A DNA stretch of 55,199 nt from Flavobacteriales bacterium (GTDB lineage: Bacteria; Bacteroidota; Bacteroidia; Flavobacteriales; TMED113). The position numbers and the translations under genes were made by a program. Below the pieces are notes generated by a model. It did not search any database, was not told the origin of the DNA, and saw only the letters and a program-made list of their open reading frames with translations. Shown here one piece after another: positions 11,134 to 27,653 of this stretch (positions are counted from its first letter, which is position 1; every line of letters begins with the position of its first letter). The stretch lies in contig PKDT01000001.1 in NCBI GenBank assembly GCA_002863085.1, forward strand, positions 1 to 55,199. The letters run 5' to 3'.

Positions 11134-14061
11134 TTATTCAATAATTGAGTTATATATTATTTTTTGAATATCTGTACGAATATTTTGATCTATAAGTTTT
11201 TTATTCATGCCGTCTGGAAACGAACGGCCGTTTGATAAGAAAACATATGATATATTTTTATCAGGATCAGACCAAGCCATAGTTCCTGTCCAACCAGAGT
11301 GTCCAAAACTTAAATTTGATATTGAATCACATGTTGGACCATTTTCATCAGGATCAATACTAGGTTTGTCAAAAATAATACCTCTTCTATTTTCGTTTTC
11401 TGTAAAATGAGAACTTGAAAAATAATTAATTGTTTTTTGGGAAACAAAAAATTCTTCAATGTGGTTAACATCAAGATAATAATTCATTATTCTTATGACA
11501 TCTATCGCATTAGAAAATAGTCCAGCGTGCAGGGCAACACCCCCTAACATTGCAGCTCCTTGGTCGTGAACATATCCTTGAACTAACTGTTTTCTAAAAT
11601 AATTATCATTCTCTGTTGGGACAATTATTTGTTTTGGGAATTTTTCAAGTGGGTTATAAAGAACTCTATGCAAACCAAGAGGATGATATAGTCTTGATGA
11701 TATGAAGTCCTGAATATTGGATTCTATTTTTTTTTCAATTATTCCTTGTATCAAATAGAATCCTAAATCACTGTATTTGTATTTCTTTTCATCAAGTAAA
11801 TCAGACTTGAGAACTGTTTTAAATATGGAATCTTTATAGCTGTTATTTATGTATAAATCCCTTGCGACTTTAATATTGAAATTGTGTTTTTCATTTTTTG
11901 AAAATATATTTTCCTTATAATTACCGGAATCATTAATGGTATTTTTATAAAAAGGTATCCAAGGAAAAAGTCCGGCCTGGTGGGTAAAAATATTAATTAT
12001 CCTGAGATTTGCTTTGTTACTAACTTTGAATATTTTATCATAACTTTTGAGTTTCTTATTTAAATTTATTGATCTCTTTTCTTTAAGATACATTACAATT
12101 GGAGCGGCAGAAAGAATTTTAGTCAATGAAGCAATATCATAAAGATGATAGTCCTTTACTGCTTTAAGCGTGTCGTAAGTATGAAAACCAAAAGATTTGT
12201 TATAAATTATTTTACCATATCTTGATACAACTATTTGACAACCTGGCAGCACCTTGTCTTTTATTGCAGTATTTACAACAGAATCGATTTTTTTTAGTGT
12301 ATCTAAGCTCATACCTACTTCAGTTGGCAAGGCAAATTCTGTTATTGTAGTTTTTTCTAAATTGATTCCACTATTACAGGGAAATTCATTTAATGAAATT
12401 GGCAACTGGCCTTTAGCACCAATAGATCCAAAAATCAATTGTGCAGTTAAATCCTGAAAATCAAATGAATTTTGATAAGAAACAATAATTGAATTAACAT
12501 TCTTAGTATGAAGTTTATTTAATAATCTTGGATGACCAAAGACGTTTAAAATCACATCTTTTTTTTGTGACAAATTCTCTATAAAGTCCTTCTCAATTTT
12601 CTTTAATTTATGTGAATCCCAAAAGTTTTCATTTGGAAAATGTAAACCAATAATCACAAGGTCATAATTTTCTAGTTTTTTATGCAAATTATTTTCTTTA
12701 CTGAAATTGTACTTATTAAAATCATAACTGTCTACTGGTAAATAATTGTTAAGTCTGTTGTAAAAAATATTACCACTGTCTGACCCCATCTTCAAAAAGG
12801 CAATTTTGGACTTAGTAAAGGTCTTAATAGGCAAAGAACCATCATTTTTAAGTACAGTGATAGCATTTTTTGACAAATCCCTATTTAATTGCAAATCTCT
12901 TGAGTTGAGAAGCTTAAAATCATTAGATTTAATATCACTATTTTTTTTCTGAACCCATGCTTTAGCCATTAAAATACGACGACAACTTTCATTGAGTTGA
13001 TCTTCTAATGCTTTATTTTTAATTACAGATTTTTTAATAAGATCTATAGCAGCCTCAACGTGACTAGGAAAAAGTAATATATCGTTCCCAGCCAAGAATG
13101 CATTTAATTCTTTTTCACCAGGTTTACTGAAATTTGATAATGCTTTCATATTTAGAGCATCACTTATAACTAGACCATCAAAATTTAAACTATCTCTCAA
13201 AATATTTTTAATAATCGTTTTTGAAAGTGAAGATGGAACATTACTGGAATCAACAGACGGTAAACTTATGTGAGCCGTCATAACTGAACTAAGATTGTGA
13301 TCAATAAGTTCTTTAAATGGAAATAATTCTAAACTATCCAATCTTTCATAGCTGTGTCTAATAACAGGAAGCGAAATATGTGAATCAACGTTCGTATCTC
13401 CATGACCAGGAAAATGTTTGGCACATGCTAAAATGCCATTTTCTTGCATTGAAGACATGAATAACATCCCTTTTTTTGATACTAAATGTTTGTTTTGGCC
13501 GTATGATCTTCGGTCAATTATTGGATTATCTGGATTATTGTTAATATCTAAAACCGGTGCAAAATTAATACCAACACCTAAATTATTTAACTGATTAGCC
13601 ACACTTCGTCCCATTTCATAGATTAGACTGTCGTTTTGTATTGCTCCTATTGTCATTGCCCAAGGAAAGGTTTGAGAACTATCAATTCTCATCGAAACAC
13701 CCCACTCAGCATCAATTCCCGTCAATAAGGGAATTTTTGATAAATTGTTATATCTTTTGATTAATGACCTTAAATCGCTAGGACTGGATTTAAAAAAAAT
13801 TAACCCCCCAATATTGAATCTATTTATTAGAGTATCAACTTTTTTGAAGTAATCCTCACCTAGATTTTTACCATTGCCAGCAACCATAAATAGTTGAGAT
13901 ATCTTTTGCTCAGTTGAAAGCTTAGAAATAATACTGTCTGCCCATACAATTGAATGCCTTGTTTCGAAAGCAGGTGATTTTTTATTTTCATTAAAAGTTG
14001 TTTCAGGAGTTTTAAATGAGATTAATACCAAGAAAGAAATTAATAATGTTGAGATTCTCAC
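11134..14061 (-). CDS. Glycoside hydrolase family 3 (NagZ-like) fused to a class C beta-lactamase-like serine hydrolase
   Basis: 975 aa; GH3 motifs GIDAEWGVSMRID, ACAKHFPGHGDTNVDSHISLP, FDGLVISDALNMKAL; C-terminal serine-hydrolase SxxK in DIASLTKILSAAP and YSDLGFYLIQGIIEK. GTG start. Confidence 0.92.
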   Translation of the reverse strand: MRISTLLISFLVLISFKTPETTFNENKKSPAFETRHSIVWADSIISKLSTEQKISQLFMVAGNGKNLGEDYFKKVDTLINRFNIGGLIFFKSSPSDLRSLIKRYNNLSKIPLLTGIDAEWGVSMRIDSSQTFPWAMTIGAIQNDSLIYEMGRSVANQLNNLGVGINFAPVLDINNNPDNPIIDRRSYGQNKHLVSKKGMLFMSSMQENGILACAKHFPGHGDTNVDSHISLPVIRHSYERLDSLELFPFKELIDHNLSSVMTAHISLPSVDSSNVPSSLSKTIIKNILRDSLNFDGLVISDALNMKALSNFSKPGEKELNAFLAGNDILLFPSHVEAAIDLIKKSVIKNKALEDQLNESCRRILMAKAWVQKKNSDIKSNDFKLLNSRDLQLNRDLSKNAITVLKNDGSLPIKTFTKSKIAFLKMGSDSGNIFYNRLNNYLPVDSYDFNKYNFSKENNLHKKLENYDLVIIGLHFPNENFWDSHKLKKIEKDFIENLSQKKDVILNVFGHPRLLNKLHTKNVNSIIVSYQNSFDFQDLTAQLIFGSIGAKGQLPISLNEFPCNSGINLEKTTITEFALPTEVGMSLDTLKKIDSVVNTAIKDKVLPGCQIVVSRYGKIIYNKSFGFHTYDTLKAVKDYHLYDIASLTKILSAAPIVMYLKEKRSINLNKKLKSYDKIFKVSNKANLRIINIFTHQAGLFPWIPFYKNTINDSGNYKENIFSKNEKHNFNIKVARDLYINNSYKDSIFKTVLKSDLLDEKKYKYSDLGFYLIQGIIEKKIESNIQDFISSRLYHPLGLHRVLYNPLEKFPKQIIVPTENDNYFRKQLVQGYVHDQGAAMLGGVALHAGLFSNAIDVIRIMNYYLDVNHIEEFFVSQKTINYFSSSHFTENENRRGIIFDKPSIDPDENGPTCDSISNLSFGHSGWTGTMAWSDPDKNISYVFLSNGRSFPDGMNKKLIDQNIRTDIQKIIYNSIIE

Positions 14062-15704: not shown

Positions 15705-16463
15705 TCAAACAGCTAAAAAACCATAAAAATCAAATTTATCTTCAAATTTTAAATTTTTCCATGATGGAACTAAAGACATAGTGTCAATTTGCATACAATA
15801 TCTAATATCATTTACTAAATTCAGTCTATTCATGTAAGCAGATTTTTCAACCGCACTCATCAAATTTAACTTATTGCTTTCATAAATATTGAAAGACATT
15901 GCAGCCGAGTCAGATTCATATTTAAAATTGTAATCAAGTAGTTTATTTACAATCATTCCAGCTAATAATGTATCCTCAATACAAAACCTACCTTTCCATC
16001 CCGAGCAGAAAACTAAAACATCATTATTAAAATTCTTAGCTAAGGATCTGACGACTGAACCTACATTGAGAAATGAAGCAATCAAAACACCATGTCCGGC
16101 TTTTTTTGATTTTTCAATGGCTTTAGTACCATTGGTTGTAGTTATGACTAAGGATTTATTTCTAAAATTTTTCCCATCGTACGAAACAGGTGAATTTCCA
16201 AAATCGAAGCTTTCTACAATTTTACCATTTCTTTCAGCGGCAAAAGTATATTTGTTGTTATCTAGTTTTTTTTTTAGAAATTCAGCTTGATCTAGTGAAG
16301 ATACTGGAATTACTTTATCTCCGTGATGTTTTAAAAAAACACACATAGCTGTTGTAGCTCTAAAGACATCAATTACCACTACGGTTTTTTCTTTTAAATC
16401 GAACAAATCAATCATCAAGGGAGAAAGACAAACGTCAACTTTTCTTGTTTTTTCACTTAACAT
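15705..16463 (-). CDS. comB: 2-phosphosulfolactate phosphatase
   Basis: 252 aa; VVVIDVFRATTAM, AAERNGKIVESFDFGNSPVSY, LVITTTNGTKAIE, FCSGWKGRFCIEDTLLAGMIV. Confidence 0.92.
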   Translation of the reverse strand: MLSEKTRKVDVCLSPLMIDLFDLKEKTVVVIDVFRATTAMCVFLKHHGDKVIPVSSLDQAEFLKKKLDNNKYTFAAERNGKIVESFDFGNSPVSYDGKNFRNKSLVITTTNGTKAIEKSKKAGHGVLIASFLNVGSVVRSLAKNFNNDVLVFCSGWKGRFCIEDTLLAGMIVNKLLDYNFKYESDSAAMSFNIYESNKLNLMSAVEKSAYMNRLNLVNDIRYCMQIDTMSLVPSWKNLKFEDKFDFYGFLAV

Positions 16464-19022: not shown

Positions 19023-20042
19023 TTAATATATTTTTCTTGAGTTTAGCCAACTATGAAATTGTCTTGCATTAAGGAGGTGTTCTTTTTCAGTTTTTGCAAA
19101 ATTATGATATTCAGACCTGTCAGGTTTTGCACACATAAAAAAATATTCATGATCTTCGGCAAATAATACTGACTCTATTGACTGTAAACTTGGAACACAT
19201 ATTGGTAATGGAGGTAATCCTAGGTTGTGATATGTGTTAAACGGTGAATCTTTAGTTCTCTTAATGTGTTTATTTCTTATTCTTTTTAATTGTTTTCCGT
19301 TTTGTTTTTTCCAAATGTATGAAATTGTTGGATCAGCAGCCAACGGCCAATTTTCTTTAATACGGTTCAAATAAAGTCCAGCAATCCTAGGCATTTCATC
19401 AAAATGGCTAGCCTCTTTATGAACTATAGACGCTAAAATAAAAACTTCATCTTTTGATAAATTAATTTTATTCGCTGCATCTAATTTTTCAGGTGTCCAA
19501 AACTTATTGTATTCTAAATTAACTCTCTGAAAAAAATCCGAAGGTGTAATATTCCAATACATTTCATAGGTATTGGGAATTAGTAAAAAATACAGGCTAT
19601 CTATTGAAAAAGACTGATCTCTGAAAAAATTAACAAAATCTATTGAGTCTACCTCGAACTTATTTTGTAAAATTCCAAAAATAAAATTTATATCATCCAC
19701 GCTGTTAAATGTAAATTTTACAGGGTCTTGGGATCTAGATCTTAACTTGTTAACAATATCATTTAAGCTAGAATTTTTTTTAAAAACATATCTGCCATTC
19801 ATCATCCAATACTCTAATCTTTTTTGGGACAAAAATGAATCAAAAAATAAACTTGAGAACCAACTCATTTCAGAAGATATATTATGTAAGTTGTTTTTGA
19901 GTGAATCATATGATGTGTTTTTATCTATGAAAAACTCTGTGTCTTGAATAATCAAATTTTTTGTGAAATAATCTTTTTTGATTAGTGTACCTAAGTAAAC
20001 TAAAATTGATATTAAAAGTATAAAGTAAATTCTAAGACTCAT
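19023..20042 (-). CDS. mltG: Endolytic murein transglycosylase MltG
   Basis: 339 aa; single TM N-term; LASIVHKEASHFDEMPRIAGLYLNRIKENWPLAADPTISYIW, NTYHNLGLPPLPICVPSLQSIESVL. Confidence 0.93.
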   Translation of the reverse strand: MSLRIYFILLISILVYLGTLIKKDYFTKNLIIQDTEFFIDKNTSYDSLKNNLHNISSEMSWFSSLFFDSFLSQKRLEYWMMNGRYVFKKNSSLNDIVNKLRSRSQDPVKFTFNSVDDINFIFGILQNKFEVDSIDFVNFFRDQSFSIDSLYFLLIPNTYEMYWNITPSDFFQRVNLEYNKFWTPEKLDAANKINLSKDEVFILASIVHKEASHFDEMPRIAGLYLNRIKENWPLAADPTISYIWKKQNGKQLKRIRNKHIKRTKDSPFNTYHNLGLPPLPICVPSLQSIESVLFAEDHEYFFMCAKPDRSEYHNFAKTEKEHLLNARQFHSWLNSRKIY

Positions 20043-21957
20043 TAATTTTTTTTAGTAAATATAAACCATCTTTATTTTGGGGATATAATTTTAGAAGAGA
20101 ATTAATATAATCCAATGCTAAATCATCTTTTTCTTCAAATATCAACAACTGAGACATATTAATTAAGGTTTTTTCATGATTGGGATCTAGTTTAAGGGCA
20201 TAGTCAAAATAATTTTTGGCTTTAGAGTAACTGCCAATTGTGAAGTATAAAAATCCAAGATTTGCATATGCTGAGGTATAATTATTGTCTTCGTTTATGA
20301 TAAAGTTATATTCATCTTCTGCAAATTGAAGTCTTCCCAAACTGAACAAGTTAGTTGCATACTTATTTCTAAATTCTAAATTGTAAGGTGCAAGTTTTAC
20401 TGAATGATTGTAAAAAATATCAGCAGAGGCTAAGTCATTTATTTTGCTAAAAGATTCACCAATCCTGTATGCAGTCCATGCATCTTGGTTAGAATAATCT
20501 TTTTTTGTTAGATAATGATTTATAATTTTATCTACACCAAGCACTTTAACATACTTAGTTAGATTTTCATAGTCCTCCTTTAAATAATAATAATAAATAT
20601 ATAAGTAAATTCCTTCGTCAGAGTCAAAATCAAAATATTCTAAATATGAATAGGCAGAATCGAGATAATATTCATGAGGGTTAAATCTTTCAAACTGTTG
20701 TAAATATGCCTGAATCTTACTGAGTTTTGAGGGGTTTTTATTGTTAACACATTGCAAAGTAATAAATTCCTTAATTGAATCTAAGTCAGAACTTAATGTG
20801 CTATTAGGAATAGAAATTTTATGATCAGTAATTTTTACGTGTGGTATGTCTGTTGTTTTGGATTTTGGCATATGACACGAAATGCAGTCATTTTTATTTT
20901 CAATACTAGAGTGAATTTCAGAATTACAATCAAAATCGATATGGCATTCAGAACACTTATTATTGAAAAAATTTGGCGGTGAATTATGTACTGAAACATG
21001 TGGATTATGACAACTAATACATGACATTTTTTCATCTGATTTGATATAGCATTCACTCAATTTCATTCTGTCTACATGTGATGCCATAATGAAATCATTT
21101 TCTGAATTTGTATATCTTGGAACATATACATCCATTATATCCTTCAAATACATACCGGGTAAAAAGTCAAAAAAAGATTTGTTTGGTTTAAGTACAGAGT
21201 TTCCCTGTAAATGGCACCTTGAACAAATATCATTTTGTAGATCAATAGGTAACTTTGATGGATTTATTATTGTATAATCCGGAACAGTTGATGTATCTGT
21301 AATATTTTGATTTTTAATTTTTTCAACATGAAGTTGTCCAGGGCCGTGACACCTCTCACAGTCAATTCCTGTAGGGATAAAATTATATTTATTTTCCGAA
21401 CCTAATACAAAATCGGGGTATGCGTTATGACAAGCAACACACTCTAGTCCCATTTTTCTAGAAAACCTGCTGTTTTTATTATTTTCAAAACCAGGAGGAA
21501 AATCTAATATTGAGTCCTGGGTGTAATATGTAAACGGTGTCTGATACAAATAGCCATTGTTGTTTATTAAGTGAGAATTTGTGTGATTTCCAGATCCAAC
21601 AATAAAGTCTATTTTATTAAGATTTATATATGTAGTGTCATAACTTTTTGAAAGTCTATATTCATTTAAATAAAGTGAATCATCAATCCATCTGGGCTCA
21701 TAAAACAAATCTAATGCAGTATCATTAAGAAAAAAATGGCCATGTATGGAACTGTTTTTCCTGATTGCATGTTGGAACGAACGTCCCATGCCAGTTTTTA
21801 TGTAATGTTGATACTGATCTTGATGACACGAAATACAGGTTGACATTCCAACATATTTAACGTCAGTGTTGATGTTTAAATATTCTTTTTTATTCATACA
21901 AGATATAAACAAACACAGTACAAAAAAAATATTAAAAAATTGGTAATGCTGCTTCAT
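20032..21957 (-). CDS. Multiheme c-type cytochrome lipoprotein with C-terminal TPR repeats
   Basis: 641 aa; signal/lipobox FISC; seven CXXCH motifs (CISCHQ, CVACHN, CERCHG, CSRCHL, CISCHN, CSECHI, CISCHM); C-terminal TPRs (SAYANLGFLYFTIGSYSKAKNYFDYALKLDPNHEKT). Confidence 0.92.
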   Translation of the reverse strand: MKQHYQFFNIFFVLCLFISCMNKKEYLNINTDVKYVGMSTCISCHQDQYQHYIKTGMGRSFQHAIRKNSSIHGHFFLNDTALDLFYEPRWIDDSLYLNEYRLSKSYDTTYINLNKIDFIVGSGNHTNSHLINNNGYLYQTPFTYYTQDSILDFPPGFENNKNSRFSRKMGLECVACHNAYPDFVLGSENKYNFIPTGIDCERCHGPGQLHVEKIKNQNITDTSTVPDYTIINPSKLPIDLQNDICSRCHLQGNSVLKPNKSFFDFLPGMYLKDIMDVYVPRYTNSENDFIMASHVDRMKLSECYIKSDEKMSCISCHNPHVSVHNSPPNFFNNKCSECHIDFDCNSEIHSSIENKNDCISCHMPKSKTTDIPHVKITDHKISIPNSTLSSDLDSIKEFITLQCVNNKNPSKLSKIQAYLQQFERFNPHEYYLDSAYSYLEYFDFDSDEGIYLYIYYYYLKEDYENLTKYVKVLGVDKIINHYLTKKDYSNQDAWTAYRIGESFSKINDLASADIFYNHSVKLAPYNLEFRNKYATNLFSLGRLQFAEDEYNFIINEDNNYTSAYANLGFLYFTIGSYSKAKNYFDYALKLDPNHEKTLINMSQLLIFEEKDDLALDYINSLLKLYPQNKDGLYLLKKINES

Positions 21958-22759
21958 ATTCTCTTTTTACAATTGACTTTAAAAAAATATTTGTAAAAAT
22001 ATTTCTGGTATTTTTTTCAAATGATACGTTAAGAACTCCACCTCTAGTAAAAACATCAACATTATTTTCACTTATTAATCCTTCATCAAAAGAACACAAT
22101 ACAGCAGCAACTGCTCCCGTTCCACATGATAAGGTCTCAGACTCAACCCCCCGTTCGTATGTGCGAATAAATATTTTGTTTTTTTTAATGTTTGTGAAGG
22201 TTACATTGATGCCATTTTTTTTAAAAATATTGCTGTTTCTTATATGTTGTCCCTCAAAATCCACATCAATTGAATCAATTTTTTCATTATAAATTACAAT
22301 ATGTGGAGATCCAGTATCAACTACTTTACCAATATCATTTGTGTGAATATCAAACACGTCAATCATTGATATTTTAGTTTCAAATGATTCAAAATTACTT
22401 TTAAAAAAAAACTCCCCTTGACTAGTTTCGAAGACACCAGAAAAAAAATCTTTTTTATCATCTCCTAATATTCTTGCAGCAAAATTTGCACAACACATAC
22501 TACCATTTCCGCAGAAAGTCGAAACTAAACCATCGGAGTTATAATATGTCATCTTATAAGAGTTTTTTTTGTTATTTGGATTTTCAAGCAAAATAAAACC
22601 ATCAGCTCCAATACCATGATGTCTGTCACAAATTTTTTTAATATAACTTTGACTATCATTCACAAAATCTACTAGCTTACTTTTTACAAAAATATTTTGT
22701 CTATTATCTACGATAATGAAATCATTTCCACATGAATTGTATTTAGTGTAACTAATCAT
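21932..22759 (-). CDS. dapF: Diaminopimelate epimerase
   Basis: YTKYNSCGNDFIIVDNR, HHGIGADGFILLE, STFCGNGSMCCANFA, TYERGVESETLSCGTGAVAA. Confidence 0.95.
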   Translation of the reverse strand: MISYTKYNSCGNDFIIVDNRQNIFVKSKLVDFVNDSQSYIKKICDRHHGIGADGFILLENPNNKKNSYKMTYYNSDGLVSTFCGNGSMCCANFAARILGDDKKDFFSGVFETSQGEFFFKSNFESFETKISMIDVFDIHTNDIGKVVDTGSPHIVIYNEKIDSIDVDFEGQHIRNSNIFKKNGINVTFTNIKKNKIFIRTYERGVESETLSCGTGAVAAVLCSFDEGLISENNVDVFTRGGVLNVSFEKNTRNIFTNIFLKSIVKREYEAALPIF

Positions 22760-26888: not shown

Positions 26889-27653
26889 ATGATTCATTTA
26901 CCAAATACCCCCGAAAGACCCAAAAAATCCAGAGAAATGGGACTTACAATGGTCATGGATAAAGGACTTTCAACTATCGATGCTGAGGGCTTAATGGAAA
27001 CTTCATCTGAGTATATTGATATAATAAAATTTGGATTTGGAACATCATTACTAACCCAAAATATTTCCAAAAAAATTAAATTATATAAAAAAAACAACAT
27101 AAAAGTTTATCTAGGTGGAACTTTATTTGAAGCATATATTATTAGAGGAATGTTTCATGAATATTGCGACCTAATTGATAAGCTTGAACTTGATACAGTT
27201 GAAATTTCAGACGGTAGTATCAACTTAGAACATAATCTAAAATGTGATTACATTTACAGACTTTCTAAAAAAAAATTAAATATTTTTTCTGAGGTTGGAT
27301 ATAAAAGCTCAAACAAAATAATTCCCCCATCAAAATGGATTGAACTAATGGCTAAAGAACTTGACGCTGGGTCATGGAAGGTTATTGCAGAAGCAAGAGA
27401 AAGTGGCAATGTTGGGCTCTACAGTAGCAGTGGAGAAGTCAGATCTGACTTAATAGAAGAAATCCTTACCGAAATTCCTAAAGAAAAAATCTTATGGGAG
27501 GCGCCAAAAAAACAACAACAACTCTACTTTATAAATTTACTTGGACATAACGTGAATCTCGGAAACATAAACACCAGTGACGTAATTCCTCTCGAGTGTT
27601 TGAGACTTGGATTAAGAGGCGATACATTTTTTAATTTTATAAAAAATGATTAA
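26889..27653 (+). CDS. comA: Phosphosulfolactate synthase
   Basis: 254 aa; RPKKSREMGLTMVMDKGLS, IDIIKFGFGTS, VYLGGTLFEAYI, FSEVGYK, WKVIAEARESGNVGLY, LWEAPKKQQQLYFINLLGHNVNLGNI. Confidence 0.93.
   Translation: MIHLPNTPERPKKSREMGLTMVMDKGLSTIDAEGLMETSSEYIDIIKFGFGTSLLTQNISKKIKLYKKNNIKVYLGGTLFEAYIIRGMFHEYCDLIDKLELDTVEISDGSINLEHNLKCDYIYRLSKKKLNIFSEVGYKSSNKIIPPSKWIELMAKELDAGSWKVIAEARESGNVGLYSSSGEVRSDLIEEILTEIPKEKILWEAPKKQQQLYFINLLGHNVNLGNINTSDVIPLECLRLGLRGDTFFNFIKND

Follow-up and report, generated by a model that had tools for sequence, protein, structure and literature searches.

What does a cytochrome with seven heme-binding motifs do when its gene is embedded between two genes of peptidoglycan metabolism? 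The question is raised by a stretch of 55,199 nucleotides from a Flavobacteriales bacterium (contig PKDT01000001.1, hereafter the window). The features on which the following analyses are based are listed below, the cytochrome being termed CYT.

20032..21957 (-): CYT, a seven-heme, TPR-containing lipoprotein cytochrome of 641 aa (open reading frame, translation, orthologs and profile matches)
21898..21957 (-): CYT signal peptide and lipobox, residues 1-20 (...LCLFIS-C20; sequence, with Cys20 found in 62/63 core orthologs)
20803..21870 (-): CYT heme domain, residues 30-385, with seven CXXCH (motifs, conservation and profile matches)
21784..21792 (-): CYT Gly-Met57-Gly, residues 56-58, a candidate axial heme ligand (alignment)
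20035..20775 (-): CYT C-terminal helical and TPR region, residues 395-641 (TPR profiles, AlphaFold and conservation)
21932..22759 (-): dapF, diaminopimelate epimerase, upstream of CYT with a 26 bp overlap (TIGR00652, E 4e-52)
19023..20042 (-): mltG, endolytic transglycosylase, downstream of CYT with an 11 bp overlap (PF02618, E 2.9e-61)

The preliminary description of the window presented the protein as a lipoprotein with seven CXXCH motifs and a TPR tail, and the motif count, the lipobox and the TPR profile matches all agreed with it. The open reading frame begins with ATG, and the motifs lie at residues 41, 173, 200, 245, 313, 335 and 358, seven in total vs a mean of 0.02 and a maximum of 1 in shuffled copies of the protein. 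The signal peptide ends in a lipobox cysteine (LFISC20), which qualifies CYT as a bacterial lipoprotein. TPR_8, TPR_2, TPR_1 and TPR_19 exceeded the Pfam cut-offs, all within residues 562-637, and AlphaFold, run on two input sequences, placed confident paired helices over about residues 447-640 and gave a pLDDT of <50 across residues 19-410. CYT is thus a TPR protein by both profile matches and helix pairs, and the PDB fold search with its model retrieved TPR-type proteins only, among the matches listed. Both Pfam and TIGRFAM models confirmed the identities of dapF and mltG, and the coordinates reproduced the same-strand overlaps described earlier (26 and 11 bp, all three genes on the minus strand).

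Profile searches connected the heme domain of CYT with c554, NrfA, OcwA, MccA and MtrA. When the full-length CYT profile was compared with the PDB, TPR proteins came top and swamped the others, which the profile of the heme domain alone avoids. The latter matched 6r2q_A (1.1e-14), 6i5b (2.5e-13), MccA (4rkm; 2.9e-8), c554 (1bvb; 3.7e-6) and NrfA (about 2e-3), as well as cytochrome cf. We take 6r2q_A to be MtrA and 6i5b to be OcwA, their database labels being 'Cystathionine beta-synthase' and 'Uncharacterized protein', respectively. No Pfam or NCBIfam model spanned the whole of CYT, the partial matches being only to C554, doubled-CXXCH and DmsE/GSU2203 decaheme models. Full-length CYT fell narrowly below the cut-off of PF13435 (Cytochrome_C554), and a search of its own genome with this model gave no match under the threshold used; the heme-domain sequences matched PF13435 in 19/19 members. 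This significant similarity to structurally characterised members places the heme core of CYT in the c554/NrfA/MccA/OcwA/MtrA lineage.

CYT shares with the c554/NrfA/MccA/OcwA superfamily a YVGxxxCxxCH start, the motifs CExCHGPGxxH and CxxCHNPH, and conserved distal-type His residues. Packing of the hemes in alternating parallel and perpendicular pairs is a further trait of the superfamily; for CYT, the AlphaFold model of this domain was of too low confidence to be reliable. On the other hand, it is a lipoprotein, has Met57 in place of a His, and lacks both CXXCK and CX15CH. Its seven hemes compare with four in c554, five in NrfA, eight in MccA and nine in OcwA, and TPRs make up its C-terminus in place of the three-helix bundle of OcwA and NrfA. 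Thus, CYT is neither an NrfA, which is defined by five hemes and a catalytic CXXCK (CYT has seven CXXCH and zero CXXCK), nor an OcwA-type nonaheme surface reductase with nine hemes and the three-helix bundle. MtrA was the best PDB match, and local similarity to the MtrA/DmsE and GSU2203 decahemes (TIGR03508 and NF041028) extends over residues 173-366. The scores, however, were far under the cut-offs of these models (43.6 vs 192.2 bits for TIGR03508 and 54 vs 325 for NF041028), and CYT differs from the decahemes in having seven hemes instead of ten, a TPR tail and no porin partner seen nearby. We therefore regard CYT as an uncharacterised, conserved member of a known multiheme lineage, in which the combination of seven hemes with a TPR tail is distinctive. 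Literature searches found no paper describing it.

Paralogs of ~410 aa (L072 and L096-L099), encoded in other genomes within the order and class, share with CYT the seven CXXCH, H210, H320, H379 and C303. They differ from CYT in lacking TPRs and having His at position 57, are 26-29% identical to it, and showed no mltG neighbour in the flanks read. One short seven-heme paralog (L097:4-1351 (-), the same location as L071) adjoins a gene for an FG-GAP repeat protein, and inspection by eye suggested a SusC/SusD-like setting. A distant homolog of 738 aa with eight hemes and TPRs (L080:5014-7230 (-)) is encoded in a same-order genome (G014), and its neighbours look sulfatase-like by eye.

Met57 is invariant in the core family, and the alignments show that OcwA and MccA have a His after heme 1. 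Over 88 aligned rows, position 57 was occupied by Met in 79, His in six, Lys in two and Thr in one, with few changes on the tree. The six His-57 homologs are five of the short TPR-less paralogs and the eight-heme protein, and the Lys-57 sequences are two distant homologs. Thr aside, all of these residues are able to bind heme iron, and the pattern in the alignment suggests that position 57 is a swappable axial ligand. If this is confirmed, the occurrence of His, Met and Lys at position 57 would offer a natural series for studying heme-ligand exchange in evolution. A gene for a di-heme cytochrome c peroxidase / MauG protein (L092:287-1342 (+)) lies directly upstream of the gene for the Thr-57 homolog.

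H210, H320 and H379 were common to all homologs compared, as was C303 except in the eight-heme protein, and H125, H129, H294 and H373 were mostly restricted to the core family. Altogether, eight conserved ligand candidates outside the CXXCH motifs (Met57 and His 125, 129, 210, 294, 320, 373 and 379) are available for seven hemes. A catalytic heme is therefore possible, at least one of the eight conserved His/Met candidates may be catalytic, and CYT is not established as a pure electron carrier. OcwA also shows mixed ligation: its NrfA-like pentaheme part is fused to a tetraheme scaffold resembling c554, and of its hemes six are bis-His, one is His/Met and two are open (PMC6703420).

The main rival to an electron-transfer role starts from these residues. 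CYT could be a catalytic multiheme reductase or a detoxifying enzyme (acting, for example, on NO, nitrite, hydroxylamine or peroxide) with one five-coordinate heme, as in c554 and heme 2 of OcwA. The closest solved relatives (MccA, NrfA, OcwA and c554) include enzymes and catalytic hemes, the conserved His/Met candidates outnumber the hemes that need a second ligand, and the family-specific invariants H125, T126, N127, H129, R164, R167 and C303 look to go beyond ligand scaffolding. However, CYT lacks the CXXCK and CX15CH motifs, no enzyme-typical gene partner was found, and co-occurrence with NrfA is rare. Taken as the primary function, catalysis appears to us somewhat unlikely, albeit worth serious consideration.

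The genomic background of CYT was also examined. The genome to which the window belongs encodes CcsB (ResB) and CcsA side by side, so a system for cytochrome c maturation is at hand. In this genome the two are separate proteins of 468 and 561 aa (L115:5557-8649; G000 contig C23). A short CcsA frame is found in several members of the family, and many relatives have a single open frame of ~1050 aa for CcsB/CcsA. The genome also has an operon of ACIII make-up followed by haem-copper oxidase subunits, in which NrfD and COX1 were matched by profile; gene order, size and heme count served to assign the other subunits. No respiratory gene and no other c-type gene was noticed near CYT in the window from the list of open reading frames and spot checks, in line with the preliminary description, and the homologs of CYT had no consistent respiratory neighbour either. 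Neither of the two findings named beforehand as refuting the preliminary description, a lack of maturation genes or a steady association with a respiratory complex, was thus observed. None of the gene neighbours and partners of CYT points to an electron donor or acceptor.

COX1 was present in 148/149 class genomes with CYT vs 134/146 without it (Fisher p 0.001, which is indicative only as related genomes were not corrected for), and NrfA in 6/295. CYT thus goes with genomes having an oxygen-type oxidase and not with nitrite ammonification. We rejected CYT as a marker of anaerobic or nitrite respiration, given the rarity of NrfA and the presence of COX1 in nearly all CYT-bearing genomes. At the same time, CYT is missing from many aerobic genomes of the order that do have NrfD and COX1, indicating that it is not obligatory in that chain.

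The lipobox, the seven strongly conserved heme sites, CcsBA and the ACIII-oxidase chain in the genome together support well the role of an envelope electron carrier, one of the two offered in the preliminary description. In our best explanation, to which we assign a probability of roughly 55%, CYT is an electron-transfer cytochrome that is anchored in the outer membrane and probably faces the periplasm; it is possibly a reductase, and its TPR tail serves for docking. According to this model, CYT would be exported and lipid-anchored at Cys20, most plausibly at the outer membrane on its periplasmic side, and the CcsBA system would load its seven c-type hemes. The heme domain would form a wire of the c554/NrfA/OcwA type, in which most hemes are probably bis-His and one site is probably ligated by Met57 instead of His, giving that heme a higher potential. 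The TPR domain would probably dock a partner. Electrons would most likely pass between the aerobic chain of ACIII and haem-copper oxidase on one side and, on the other, an envelope partner or a small acceptor; donor, direction and acceptor are what we infer, and CYT itself may be a reductase. If the model is confirmed, the Bacteroidota envelope gains a redox protein.

The face of the membrane matters for another interpretation, in which CYT is part of an outer-membrane conduit or a surface reductase for extracellular electron transfer, as are MtrA and OcwA. These two were the best profile matches, and CYT shares with such systems a multiheme, lipoprotein nature. Surface-exposed lipoproteins of Bacteroidota carry an acidic export signal just after the Cys. 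In the core orthologs, however, the fraction of D/E at +2 to +5 after Cys20 was 0.06-0.19, and no surface-export-like acidic stretch follows it. Neither in the window nor in the loci read was a gene for an MtrB-type porin noticed beside CYT by inspection, and CYT is nearly confined to COX1-bearing genomes. We consider this interpretation improbable.

We then asked how widely CYT is distributed. A single-protein search of genome contigs gave one relative only, and another genome search was used instead. Of 60 relatives, 44 had a match at E <= 0.001, of which 31 were full-length or nearly so and the others were short, mostly TPR-only. The only two genomes without CYT in the window's own family were also without mltG and are incomplete assemblies. 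Across the class, profile matches at 1e-20 were found in 149/295 genomes, a count that takes in fragments, distant homologs and some TPR-less paralogs. A few lineages outside the class but within the phylum have relatives of CYT, some as several paralogs. The number of heme motifs is fixed at seven in the long homologs; a single core sequence shows six and contains undetermined residue(s) in the region of the first motif. Over the 63 core orthologs, the mean identity to the window's CYT was 55% in the heme domain and 35% in the TPR part.

In the gene tree, the CYT sequences grouped by taxonomic family and those of the window's order formed one well supported group, as expected for vertical descent. 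A scan of IMG/VR detected no relative of CYT and thus gave no sign of a link to phages. In Bacteroidia, this lipoprotein cytochrome is inherited vertically and is normally present as a single copy, and it is an ancient, overlooked part of Bacteroidota electron chemistry rather than a local oddity. Its retention across many families of COX1-bearing Bacteroidia, in genomes down to 1.3 Mb, implies that its role is likely important.

The order of dapF, CYT and mltG is present in most core orthologs. Of 64 core loci, 53 have mltG immediately downstream of CYT in the same orientation, and dapF precedes CYT in this orientation in at least 39, a minimum owing to short flanks. The commonest order across families is dapF-GNAT-CYT-mltG, in which a GNAT acetyltransferase gene lies between dapF and CYT; it does so in most other families and is missing from that position in the window's family. 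The overlaps with dapF and mltG had led the preliminary description to propose translational coupling to two peptidoglycan genes, which is only partly right. The distance between CYT and mltG stays small (from about -8 to +86 bp in the loci read), so that the two are likely co-transcribed. The dapF side is limited to the window's family, to which the tight overlaps with both neighbours belong, and elsewhere GNAT usually intervenes.

A functional tie to the wall is a separate matter. CYT could be a redox sensor or regulator of peptidoglycan synthesis that acts on MltG or with DapF, as its position directly before mltG at such close junctions might suggest, together with the ability of TPR domains to mediate protein contacts. 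Nevertheless, dapF, GNAT and mltG remain clustered and intact in many genomes without CYT, CYT is located away from mltG in 11/64 core loci, mltG was not noticed in the flanks that were read for the relatives outside the class, and the sequence of CYT shows nothing like a wall-binding domain. The address is thus ancient and provides no evidence of a wall function; we read the position between dapF and mltG as reflecting an ancient genomic address and shared transcription. The link to peptidoglycan and the redox sensing raised in the preliminary description found no independent support, a peptidoglycan role for CYT is not supported, and we regard the regulator as very unlikely.

A bolder interpretation is that CYT might be an ancestral respiratory or redox enzyme of Bacteroidia, in which the axial His of one heme was replaced by Met (Lys in two distant homologs) and another heme was left open for catalysis. 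It would link the aerobic ACIII chain to an envelope substrate, and its gene would have shared an operon with wall-synthesis genes from an early stage of the class. This scenario is speculative, and we give it little credence.

Other genes in the window deserve brief mention. A gene for a ComB-like 2-phosphosulfolactate phosphatase (15705-16463 (-); PF04029, 1.9e-67) and one for the phosphosulfolactate synthase ComA (26889-27653 (+); PF02679, 2.1e-87) lie about 10 kb apart, flanking the CYT locus on either side. The pair represents a sulfolactate branch in a tiny genome, perhaps serving sulfonolipid or sulfonate synthesis. Finally, a gene at 11134-14061 (-) encodes a protein of 975 aa, in which a glycosyl hydrolase family 3 domain is fused to a beta-lactamase-like domain.
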